NCBI GenBank assembly: GCA_013002165.1
Contig: JABDKO010000220.1
Span: 1-64,000, forward strand
Source: Rhodothermales bacterium
GTDB lineage: Bacteria > Bacteroidota > Rhodothermia > Rhodothermales > JABDKH01
Length of the DNA: 64,000 nt
Direction: 5' to 3'
The notes below the pieces were generated by a model. The model was not told the origin of the DNA. It did not search any database and worked only from the letters and a program-made list of their open reading frames with translations. The translations under genes and the position numbers were made by a program. How positions within the stretch are numbered: position 1 is the stretch's first letter; every line of letters begins with the position of its first letter. This document shows, piece after piece, positions 42,236-46,425 of the stretch.

Positions 42236-42249
42236 TTAGACGAGTCTAA
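42236..42249. promoter_or_regulatory. Candidate DtxR/MntR-family operator
   Basis: Perfect palindrome arms TTAGAC-GA-GTCTAA, 24 bp upstream of the metal ABC operon start codon. Confidence 0.6.
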
Positions 42250-42273: not shown

Positions 42274-43215
42274 ATGTCGAAACAGATTACTGTCGTTGCA
42301 TTATTCACCTTGTTGATCTCCGCCTGTGCCCCGGCCGGTAGCGGTGAGAAAGATCTGTCATCTGCGCCAACCCTGAAAGTAGTCGCCACGACGAACATGG
42401 TAGCCGACCTGGTCCGGACCATCGGAGGCGACCATGTCGATCTTGTTTCATTGATGGGCCCCGGTATTGATCCACATCTGTACAAGGCAAGCGAGGGTGA
42501 CGTGGCAAGGATGGCTGGCGCCGACGTGATATTTTATGGCGGCCTCCATCTTGAGGGCAAGATGGTCGATATTTTTGAACAGATGGACTCGCGAGGGAAG
42601 AGAGCCGTAGCGGTAACAGATGGAATAGATCGCGAGAAGCTTATCGAGTCAGAGGTTTTTGGAGGACACTACGACCCGCATGTATGGTTTGATGTCACAC
42701 TCTGGCAGGATGCCGCACAGTATGTCACGGAGTATCTATCCGACATCAATAGTGTTAATCAAGCCGTGTACCGGTCCAACCTTGACACATACCTGCAGGC
42801 ACTTTCTGAAACGGATACGTGGGTACGAACAGAGGTCAACACACTTGATCCCGGCCAACGCGTTCTCATAACATCGCACGATGCTTTCGGTTATTTTGGC
42901 CGCGCTTACGATTTCGAAGTATATGGGCTTCAGGGCATCAGCACAGTGGCAGAAGCAGGCACAGCAGACGTACAAAGTCTATCGACCATGGTCGCTGAAA
43001 GACGCATCCCGGCCATGTTCGTAGAGTCGTCAGTACCACGGAGGGGGATCGAGGCTGTACAGCAGGCAGTCCGCGCAAAAGGATTTGATGTGACCATCGG
43101 AGGAAGTCTGTTTTCGGACGCACTTGGAGTAGAAGGAACTCCCGAAGGTACGTATACTGGTATGATTCGGCACAACGTAACCACAATCATTAGTGGCCTG
43201 AGCGCTACAGAGTGA
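42274..43215 (+). CDS. Metal (Mn/Zn/Fe) ABC transporter substrate-binding lipoprotein, TroA/MntA-like
   Basis: GPGIDPHLYKASEGD, YDPHVWFDV, LITSHDAFGYFGRAY. Confidence 0.93.
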   Translation: MSKQITVVALFTLLISACAPAGSGEKDLSSAPTLKVVATTNMVADLVRTIGGDHVDLVSLMGPGIDPHLYKASEGDVARMAGADVIFYGGLHLEGKMVDIFEQMDSRGKRAVAVTDGIDREKLIESEVFGGHYDPHVWFDVTLWQDAAQYVTEYLSDINSVNQAVYRSNLDTYLQALSETDTWVRTEVNTLDPGQRVLITSHDAFGYFGRAYDFEVYGLQGISTVAEAGTADVQSLSTMVAERRIPAMFVESSVPRRGIEAVQQAVRAKGFDVTIGGSLFSDALGVEGTPEGTYTGMIRHNVTTIISGLSATE

Positions 43216-43226
43216 CACTCGATTGA

Positions 43227-44012
43227 ATGCCCTTGACTGATCAAAGACGGCACGCCATTGAAGTACGCGACCTGACAGTCGCTTACCATGAAAAACCTGT
43301 CCTGTGGGATATTGACCTTGACGTTCCAGCTGGCGTGTTGATGGCCATTGTCGGGCCAAACGGTGCCGGAAAGACAACCCTTATCAAGGCTATTCTCGGG
43401 CTTATTAGAACCGCGGCCGGGGAGGTGTCGATTCTCGGCCACAAGTACAAGCGACAACGCAACCGGGTAGCATATGTCCCGCAGCGTGGATCCGTTGACT
43501 GGGACTTCCCCACAAGCGTCCTGGACGTCGTTACTATGGGACGCTACGGTCGGATCGGGTGGGTGCGAAGGCCTTCTCGAACGGACAAAGACCTTGCGGT
43601 CAAGGCACTTGAAAAGGTCGGGATGGATCAATTCAGAAAACGTCAGATCAGCGAGCTATCTGGAGGTCAACAGCAGCGAGTATTTCTCGCACGTGCACTC
43701 GTTCAGGACGCGGACGTGTATTTCATGGACGAACCGTTTCAGGGAGTAGATGCGGTTACCGAACGGGCGATTGTCGAAATCCTGCGTGACTTGCGTCGGC
43801 ACAACAAAACAGTCGTTGTAGTGCATCATGATCTCCAGACCGTAGAAGAGTATTTCGACTATGTGATGCTGCTGAATATCAGAAAGATTGCGAGCGGGCC
43901 GGTCGCGGAAGTATTCAATTCTGAAAACTTGAGAATTACGTATGGCGGTAGAGTCGCTTTCTTGAAGCCGACAGCTTCTGCAGATATTACGCAATCTCAA
44001 AAGCCAGGTTAA
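43227..44012 (+). CDS. Metal ABC transporter ATPase
   Basis: [43 protein letters not shown]. Confidence 0.94.
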
Positions 44013-44023
44013 GTCCAATTCAA

Positions 44024-45148
44024 TTGATGGATCTACTCCAGCAGCTCATAACGGATTATACACTGCGCAATGTTGCGCTGGGATCTGCAGTACTTGGGAT
44101 GGTTGCCGGTACGCTCGGGTCGTTTGCACTGCTGCGTCAGCAGAGTCTTCTTGGAGATGCCGTGTCTCACGCCGCACTTCCCGGCGTTGTCATCGCATAC
44201 ATGTTAACCGGCTCAAAAGCACCTCTTGTGCTTATCCTCGGCGCCGCGTTAGCGGGCTGGGTAGCAACAGGCCTCGTCATGCTGACCGTTGCCAATACCC
44301 GAATCAAGTATGACTCGGCCCTCGGGATCGTCCTCTCTGTATTTTTCGGATTCGGCCTGGTGCTCCTGACCTTTTTGCAGAAAACACCCGATGCCAACCA
44401 GGCTGGTCTGGATACATTTCTCTTTGGACAGGCAGCGGCACTCGTGCATCGCGACGTCATCACGATGAGCATCGTCGGCGGGATATCCATCGTACTAATC
44501 ATTGTATTCTGGAAAGAGTTCAAGATGCTCTCGTTCGATTCCGACTTCGGCAAGAGCCTCGGATTCAATATGCGCTTTGCCGACATTTTACTGACTGCCC
44601 TCATAGTAATAGCGATCGTAATAGGCCTGCAAACAGTCGGAGTTGTCCTTATGAGTGCAATGATCATCGCCCCGGCTGCTGCTGCTCGGCAATGGACAAA
44701 TCGCCTGAGCGGTATGATCGCGCTGTCGGCCCTTTTCGGTGCCGTGGCCGGTGTGGCTGGTGCAACGATCAGTAGTGTGCAATCCAATCTGCCGACCGGG
44801 CCCGTGGTCGTGTTGGGCGCTGGTGTTATTGTCACCGTCTCGATACTATTTGCTCCGGCACGAGGAGTGGTGTGGACGTGGATTCGTCAGTGGCGGAATG
44901 GTAAGCGATTAAGAATGGAGGCCGTAATGGTTGACCTGTTCACGCTGGCTGCCCATCACCATCGCGCAGACTACCCTCACGATGAGGCCGTCATCAACAT
45001 GATGACTAACATCACCGGCCGGTCTTTGAAGACGCTGGAAGCTCTGGAGGATCGGGGCCTGGCAACGAGGCTCGGTCCGTCCCAGTGGGCGCTTACCGAT
45101 GCAGGTGTCGCGCGCGTCCGAAGTATACTGGAGACGAGTGGTGCATAG
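44024..45148 (+). CDS. Metal ABC-3 permease with C-terminal winged-helix-like extension
   Basis: ABC-3 permease (LLGDAVSHAALPGVVIAYML); C-terminal ~78 aa predicted soluble/wHTH-like. Confidence 0.9.
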   Translation: MMDLLQQLITDYTLRNVALGSAVLGMVAGTLGSFALLRQQSLLGDAVSHAALPGVVIAYMLTGSKAPLVLILGAALAGWVATGLVMLTVANTRIKYDSALGIVLSVFFGFGLVLLTFLQKTPDANQAGLDTFLFGQAAALVHRDVITMSIVGGISIVLIIVFWKEFKMLSFDSDFGKSLGFNMRFADILLTALIVIAIVIGLQTVGVVLMSAMIIAPAAAARQWTNRLSGMIALSALFGAVAGVAGATISSVQSNLPTGPVVVLGAGVIVTVSILFAPARGVVWTWIRQWRNGKRLRMEAVMVDLFTLAAHHHRADYPHDEAVINMMTNITGRSLKTLEALEDRGLATRLGPSQWALTDAGVARVRSILETSGA

Positions 45149-45238
45149 TATGTTGCATGTCATACCGCCCCGTTCGCCAGTGTCGGACCTGTTCGGTTCG
45201 GTTAACGCTCTCAGGTCACGCTTCGCCGAGGGATCAGG

Positions 45239-46351
45239 ATGACATCGGTCCAGTTCGAAATACAATTGATTGCGATCCTTGTGGCAGTGGCATGCGCCAT
45301 TCCAGGTGTGTTTCTGGTTTTGCGGAAAATGGCCATGATGTCCGACGCTATCAGTCACTCCATCCTTCCGGGCCTCGTCATCGCGTTCTTCCTTACTGGC
45401 ACTCTGAATTCGCCGTTGTTGATTGTCGGAGCTACTGCAACAGGATTGCTGACGGTACTTCTTGTCGAGAGTATCTCCAAAACGCGATTGCTTAAGGAGG
45501 ATGCCGCTATTGGACTGGCGTTTCCGGTGTTCTTCAGTATCGGCGTAATTCTTATTGCCCGCTTTGCCGGCGACATACATCTCGACGTCGACTCGGTACT
45601 GTTGGGTGAACTTGCATTCGCACCATTCAATCGTGTCTCACTGTTTGGGCGAGATCTCGGTCCGGCCGCGATGTGGACGATGATAGTTGTTGTTGTTATA
45701 AACGCGGCTTTCGTGGCTGTATTTTATAAAGAGCTGAAAATTGCCAGTTTCGATTCGGGATTGGCGGCGGCACTGGGATTTGTCCCGGCAGGCATACACT
45801 ACGGACTGATGACGTTGGTTTCTGCAACAGCGGTTGCAGCGTTCGATGCTGTGGGGTCCATTCTTGTTGTGGCTCTAATTGTTGGTCCGCCGGCGACTGC
45901 CTACCTGCTTACAAACAGACTGTCCGTAATGATTGGACTCAGTATTCTACTGGGCATGCTATCGGCGATCCTTGGTTACTGGTTCGCTCACTGGCTGGAT
46001 GCGTCGATTGCCGGTGCAATGGCAACGATGGTGGGCGTGGTATTCGTCATCGTCCTCTTTCTGGCACCGGGTAGAGGTGTGGCAGCAGTCTGGCGTCGCA
46101 GGTATCGCCAGAAGTGGACATTCGCTGAAAAAATGTTGGCGATACACCTGCACCACCACGAGGGTATGGTAGATGAAGCGCGCGAAAACAGAACCGCCCA
46201 CCTGCAGGAACACTTCAGCTGGGACGCGCGGTTCGCTGGTTCCGTCGTCGAGCGTGCAAAAGATGATGGATTCGTAACCGAAGGCGGTGGACTTCTGAAC
46301 CTTACCGAAGCCGGTAGGGCCCTGGCGAGAGAAGCGATAGTGCAAGCGTAA
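45239..46351 (+). CDS. Second metal ABC-3 permease with C-terminal winged-helix-like extension
   Basis: ABC-3 permease (MMSDAISHSILPGLVIAFFL); C-terminal soluble extension from ~46114. Confidence 0.9.
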   Translation: MTSVQFEIQLIAILVAVACAIPGVFLVLRKMAMMSDAISHSILPGLVIAFFLTGTLNSPLLIVGATATGLLTVLLVESISKTRLLKEDAAIGLAFPVFFSIGVILIARFAGDIHLDVDSVLLGELAFAPFNRVSLFGRDLGPAAMWTMIVVVVINAAFVAVFYKELKIASFDSGLAAALGFVPAGIHYGLMTLVSATAVAAFDAVGSILVVALIVGPPATAYLLTNRLSVMIGLSILLGMLSAILGYWFAHWLDASIAGAMATMVGVVFVIVLFLAPGRGVAAVWRRRYRQKWTFAEKMLAIHLHHHEGMVDEARENRTAHLQEHFSWDARFAGSVVERAKDDGFVTEGGGLLNLTEAGRALAREAIVQA

Positions 46352-46425
46352 CCAGGAACTGGCAACTAGCAACTAGGAACTGGCAACTAGGAACTAGGAA
46401 CTAGCAACTAGGAACTAGGAACCAG
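46349..46425 (+). repeat. Heptanucleotide tandem repeat, 11 units including a degenerate first one, consensus SAACTRG
   Basis: taaccag gaactgg caactag caactag gaactgg caactag gaactag gaactag caactag gaactag gaaccag. Confidence 0.95.

Follow-up and report, generated by a model that had tools for sequence, protein, structure and literature searches.

DtxR-type winged-helix tails predicted on both permeases of a Mn/Zn-type ABC importer from a Rhodothermales bacterium

The importer operon and its permease tails

Fusions of a metal importer permease to a DtxR domain are known from YtgCR of Chlamydia, and orthologous fusions have been reported from 11 phyla, as a review relates (PMC5599777). In Chlamydia, the full DtxR domain, YtgR, is cleaved off YtgCR and represses transcription (PMC5599777, PMC7755916). 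Feedback at the protein level through fused cytosolic domains is established for the importers MetNI and ModABC; in MetN and ModC, the C-terminal domains form a cytosolic pair that binds substrate and keeps the ATPases apart (PMC10710835). The operon described here lies in a 64,000-nucleotide stretch of contig, referred to below as the window. It resembles the YtgCR operon in the order binding protein, ATPase, permease, permease and in having an ABC-3 permease with a C-terminal DtxR-derived domain. YtgR, however, keeps the metal-coordinating residues of DtxR, is cleaved and represses transcription, whereas the window has only the winged helix (wHTH), has it on both permeases and belongs to a genome with a separate DtxR. 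An earlier sequence-only reading of this DNA had allowed that permease-DtxR fusions might already be known, as they are (PMC5599777). The YtgCR arrangement itself, a full DtxR on one permease, is found in relatives (families f3 and f17) and not in the window. One winged helix per permease is a distinct variant of the known fusions. We found no description of the truncated and double tails, of their exchange with the full fusion, of the conserved histidine set or of a TroD tail in the open-licence literature, our coverage of which is incomplete.

Table 1. Features of the importer locus, in window coordinates.
Feature	Position	Strand	Evidence
Operator-like palindrome TTAGACGAGTCTAA, predicted DtxR box	42236..42249	.	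exact TTAGN6CTAA; first start codon of the operon lies 25 bp downstream
Metal-binding lipoprotein of the periplasm (ZnuA/MntC type)	42274..43215	+	PF01297, Pfam 248 bits
ABC ATPase of the importer	43227..44012	+	PF00005, 108.7 bits
Permease 1 (ABC-3/COG1108), carrying a short wHTH tail	44024..45148	+	PF00950, 229 bits, residues 12-276
Tail 1, predicted DtxR-type winged helix without dimerisation/metal domain	44888..45145	+	AlphaFold pLDDT 90.3; hhalign; conservation
Permease 2 (ABC-3), carrying a short wHTH tail	45239..46351	+	PF00950, 151.6 bits, residues 10-274
Tail 2, predicted DtxR-type winged helix	46094..46348	+	AlphaFold pLDDT 93.8; Foldseek; conservation

The four genes (42274-46351) are predicted to encode a Mn/Zn-type ABC importer (Table 1). 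The permeases belong to the ABC-3/COG1108 class of metal importer permeases by their PF00950 membrane domain and by sharing an operon with a ZnuA-type binding protein and an ABC ATPase. The best NCBIfam models for the lipoprotein are AztC, EfaA and MntC, and the closest for the ATPase are Mn/Fe importer ATPases, all of them scoring under their cut-offs. The permease 1 frame, with an ATG at 44027, is 374 aa long, and its closest solved structure is pneumococcal PsaC (7kyp); the permease 2 frame is 370 aa long. A short tandem array at 46350-46422 immediately follows the permease 2 stop codon. It consists of 3.5 copies of the 21-base unit AACTAGGAACTGGCAACTAGG and can also be read as 10.4 copies of a 7-base period.

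Since the Pfam domain ends at residue 276 in permease 1 and at residue 274 in permease 2, both tails are outside it, with about 85 residues past its end on each permease. Positively charged stretches in membrane proteins face the cytosol by the positive-inside rule, and the tails should therefore be cytosolic because an Arg/Lys-rich stretch separates each from the last membrane helix. Searched alone, neither tail matched any Pfam or NCBIfam model over its curated cut-off, PF01325 included. AlphaFold2, given alignments of tails from relatives (31 rows for tail 1 and 34 for tail 2), predicted the same order of elements for both, H1-H2-H3-strand-strand(wing)-H4, at the pLDDT listed in Table 1, with helix 1 running straight on from the membrane helix. 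The best Foldseek matches of tail 2 in the PDB are IdeR (7b1y), DtxR and MntR, with a TM score of about 0.67 on the query and an rmsd of 1.6-2.5 Å, none of them at E < 0.001. The many winged helices matched by tail 1 include IdeR, MntR and an E. coli DtxR-like protein. In hhalign, tail 1 aligned to the full permease-DtxR fusions at 95.4% and tail 2 to tail 1 at 92%; against standalone DtxR, the values were 90% for tail 2 and 76% for tail 1.

By these models and profiles, the tails are winged helices of the DtxR type, as the sequence-only reading had said of both permeases from tail sequences that are indeed present in the two frames. They would be derived from the DNA-binding half of DtxR or be its homologues. 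They are like the N-terminal domain of DtxR, IdeR and MntR (PF01325) in fold and profile but are below Pfam detection, lack the recognition-helix motif and stop after the winged helix, without the metal and dimerisation domain (PF02742).

Conservation of the tails and exchange with the full fusion

Conservation was scored with redundancy weighting over 104 tail-1 and 102 tail-2 sequences. The most conserved polar residues are histidines. In tail 1, H24 (44957-44959) and H31 (44978-44980) are present in 100%. In tail 2, H18 (46145-46147) and H22 (46157-46159) are each at 98%, H36 (46199-46201) is at 86% and H40 (46211-46213) at 94%, accompanied by E31 (46184-46186) at 98% and W43 (46220-46222) at 100%. 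On the predicted secondary structure, these His, Glu and Trp positions fall at the end of helix 1, in the next loop and in helix 2. The fold core is also conserved (L50, L53, W67, L69, T70 and G73 in tail 1; L68, L70, T71 and G74 in tail 2). Tails that align across many phyla with invariant positions are far from chance. The histidine-rich starts pointed out earlier were thus partly a good guide: the middle His of AHHHR (H24) and the first and last of HLHHHE (H18 and H22) are near-invariant, but the other histidines there are not, and a later one, in a PH pair (H31), is invariant.

The recognition helix is not conserved. Its exposed face carries about 0.9-1.8 bits in the tails, versus 3.4-4.1 bits for A37, S38, V39, T40, M42 and K/R45 in 52 standalone DtxRs from operons of these kinds; the counterparts there of the exposed tail positions (A37, S38, V39, T40 and K45) carry 3.4-3.7 bits. 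The six metal ligands of the DtxR dimerisation domain are all absent from the tails (0 of 6), so any metal site in them would have to be a new one.

Permease 1 was matched over its full length, tail included, in most carriers among 148 related genomes. The operons inspected, 40 from relatives and 8 from elsewhere in the phylum, fall into three states. One, seen in families f3, f17 and three others, combines a complete DtxR on permease 1 with a tail-less permease 2; these fusions have both the winged helix and a PF02742 domain, at 87-93 bits and with all ligands kept. Another has a bare winged helix on permease 1 together with one on permease 2, as in the window's operon and most of its order. 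In the remaining state, found in part of family f13, the permease 1 tail is gone and the permease 2 tail is kept. A scan of named genomes added 80 loci from Bacteroidota, Rhodothermota, Chloroflexota, Actinomycetota, Spirochaetota, Thermodesulfobacteriota, Gemmatimonadota, Calditrichota, Poribacteria, Zixibacteria and others, with phyla taken from record titles. The short tail is on all permease 1 sequences readable as far as the C-terminus and on every permease 2, which gives no estimate of prevalence because the loci were found with a tail-bearing permease 1 as query and many are metagenome bins.

Counting all operons (n = 121), 109 have both short tails, 8 pair a full DtxR on permease 1 with a tail-less permease 2, 4 have the tail on permease 2 only, and no other combination occurs. 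The doubly tailed operons span at least 14 phyla by record title, and the window's operon fits them, with H24 and H31 on permease 1 and H18, H22, E31, H40 and W43 on permease 2. A full DtxR on permease 1 goes with a bare permease 2 in 8 of 8. In a tree built from the membrane domains only, the gain of the permease 2 tail is a single change (support 99) with almost no losses, and a single split separates the full from the short forms of permease 1, with losses later. The linkage of the tails is therefore essentially one evolutionary event and not many independent ones. The linkage and the single origin together suggest that tail 2 took over the role of partner when permease 1 lost its dimerisation domain.

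A few tails are decaying (permease 2 of L073 and both tails of L202), and there most of the histidines have been lost too, although the permease 2 winged helix is kept. Other lineages without tail 1 retain the permease 2 histidines, so this predicted site can work alone. In Flavobacteriaceae (L088-L091, L150-L178), permease 2 runs on for about 25 residues beyond the winged helix and closes with a conserved (D/R)FFLFRG motif.

The permease 2 tail profile was found in 10 of 247 spirochaete genomes. In a spirochaete genome of 1.14 Mb (L198), the ATPase, permease 1, permease 2 and DtxR are 266, 298, 367 and 153 residues long, as published for TroB, TroC, TroD and TroR of T. pallidum (PMC2628430). 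Spirochaete genomes of 2.8 Mb have 255, 304, 366 and 222 residues, the published lengths of the T. denticola Tro proteins (PMC2628430). By this match of lengths and genome sizes, a TroD of the Treponema type appears to carry the permease 2 tail with its histidine set, and TroC none, in the 1.14 Mb and the 2.8 Mb genomes alike. H18, H22, E31, H36, H40 and W43 are all kept in the tail of the TroD-length permease of L198, and the TroC-length permease has no tail. On this identification, the Treponema troABCDR operon is like the window's in gene set and in its association with a standalone DtxR-type repressor (TroR) but differs in having a tail on TroD only.

The operator and the standalone DtxR

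The DtxR-like palindrome reported earlier ahead of the operon is there as an exact TTAGN6CTAA and is a probable DtxR box. It is one of four such sites in the 3.98 Mb genome. Of 44 homologous operons, 32 have the motif no more than 120 bases ahead of their first gene. Spacings other than exactly 6 are essentially absent among the 44, and about one match would be expected by chance for the shorter TAGN6CTA core. In operons that begin with a dtxR gene, the palindrome is usually located ahead of dtxR, in an arrangement resembling autoregulation.

That no separate DtxR is seen nearby is correct for the window, which has no DtxR gene over cut-off, but not for the genome. A standalone DtxR with winged-helix, dimerisation and FeoA domains is encoded on another contig (G000:C256:6820-7467), and it is the only PF02742 match in the genome. 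Most relatives also have one. Within the class, 33 of 34 operons have the operator where the genome encodes a DtxR, versus 1 of 3 where it does not (Fisher p = 0.013, a small sample uncorrected for kinship), and it is still present where the permease 1 tail has been lost (L072-L075). Since the operator tracks the DtxR gene and not the permease 1 tail, the C256 DtxR is the simplest regulator, and the operon is most likely controlled by it at the TTAGN6CTAA site. One operon (L069, in G042, a genome 98% complete) is an exception to this link, having the operator and both tails in a genome where no DtxR is detectable by PF01325 over cut-off or by PF02742.

Another TTAGN6CTAA site in the genome (L098:1501-1514, G000:C300:1683-1696) is 25 bp upstream of a frame (L098:1526-2257) for a protein of 243 aa resembling an outer membrane barrel (Phenol_MetA_deg, 28.5 bits), which is perhaps a second DtxR target. 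The three other sites do not make a firm regulon: one stands ahead of this barrel gene, the one in L096 precedes no obvious ORF start and the one in L095 has no obvious metal gene beside it. A looser pattern, TTTAGACNNGTCTAAA, with 3 mismatches allowed gave 80 matches, below its reversed control, and was uninformative.

Possible functions of the tails

Feedback on transport itself is well known for Mg2+ channels and a few ABC importers; among Mn/Zn/Fe ABC importers, no case is known to us. We propose that the tails are cytosolic metal-sensing domains acting back on the importer, a reading to which we give an even chance. Imported metal arriving on the cytosolic side would bind the putative cluster of conserved histidines in one or both winged helices, and these would then change their packing against each other or against the ATPases and so throttle transport in the manner of the MetN and ModC C-terminal domains. 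Since one complete DtxR has been exchanged for two bare winged helices, the permease heterodimer would now supply the pairing once given by the dimerisation domain. The analogy is to a proposed working in which a paired cytosolic domain binds substrate and restrains the importer; the MetN C2 and ModC domains have unrelated folds and are fused to the ATPase, whereas the tails are on the permease. We infer that the tail histidines bind metal, that the tails touch the ATPases and that the outcome is inhibition, and the histidines could be structural rather than metal-binding. Against the proposal, the regulatory domains we know of in ABC importers are on the ATPase and not on a permease of the ABC-3 type, and L202 and L073 retain the permease 2 winged helix with most histidines gone. 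Its loss in several lineages (the f13 loci and Treponema) makes tail 1 not essential everywhere.

The fold and the near-invariant histidines keep alive the sensor and gating options of the sequence-only reading, but its DNA-binding option fares poorly. In Chlamydia, YtgCR does act as a repressor, with a full DtxR domain freed by cleavage (PMC5599777, PMC7755916), and the tails, tethered or released by proteolysis, might likewise bind the operon's operator in a metal-dependent way. They are DtxR-type winged helices, the permease heterodimer brings two of them together in a way that could substitute for the lost dimerisation domain, and G042 has the operator with no detectable DtxR. Yet the recognition helix is not conserved, the DtxR metal and dimerisation domain is missing, this genome and most relatives encode a standalone DtxR, and the operator persists without the permease 1 tail and is lost in two of the three sampled operons from genomes without DtxR (the small comparison given above). 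Because of the variable helix, the distribution of the operator and the standalone DtxR, the tails are probably not the operon's repressor, a role we consider improbable. A function in assembly or stability, in which the winged helices dock to the ATPase or to each other and hold the complex together while the histidines are structural or bind a structural zinc, is unlikely. In its favour, the core Leu, Trp, Gly and Thr residues of the wing and H4 are conserved as strongly as the histidines, and helix 1 of the predicted fold directly extends the membrane helix. Tail-less members of the importer family do function, however (PsaC 7kyp, ZnuB 9oko), near relatives have lost tail 1, and structure alone does not account for invariant histidines in a solvent region.

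Slightly less likely still is a hand-over of metal, in which the His-rich winged helices would collect the ion where it emerges into the cytosol and deliver it onward, as a metallochaperone or sink, with no gating. The tail 2 histidine pairs at i,i+4 (H18/H22 and H36/H40) do look like transition-metal ligands, and the permease 2 site is kept without tail 1 in L072, L074, L075 and Treponema, but winged helices are not known as a fold of chaperones, and why the two tails occur as a fixed pair would be left unexplained. The tails could finally be functionless remnants of an ancient permease-DtxR fusion, given that full fusions are present in related lineages and that some tails are visibly decaying (L073 permease 2, L202). 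We regard this as very improbable because the residues invariant over the 104 and 102 sequences from many phyla, and a permease 2 tail of single ancient origin with almost no losses, require selection.

Returning to feedback on transport, we tentatively suggest a widespread, unnamed class of importers in which a heteromeric pair of repurposed DtxR winged helices senses cytosolic Mn, Zn or Fe at a new histidine site and gates transport directly, beside a separate transcriptional DtxR. If the tails sense metal, a transcription-factor domain would have been turned into an allosteric brake, twice per complex, in many phyla and in the Treponema Tro importer. If they merely stabilise the complex, they still correct the expectation derived from YtgCR that DtxR domains fused to permeases are repressors. 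The full fusions L053, L062, L080-L082 and L092-L094 may likewise not be repressors. Their metal and dimerisation domain is well kept, a standalone dtxR heads the same operon, and their winged-helix half is too diverged for PF01325, as tested on L080.
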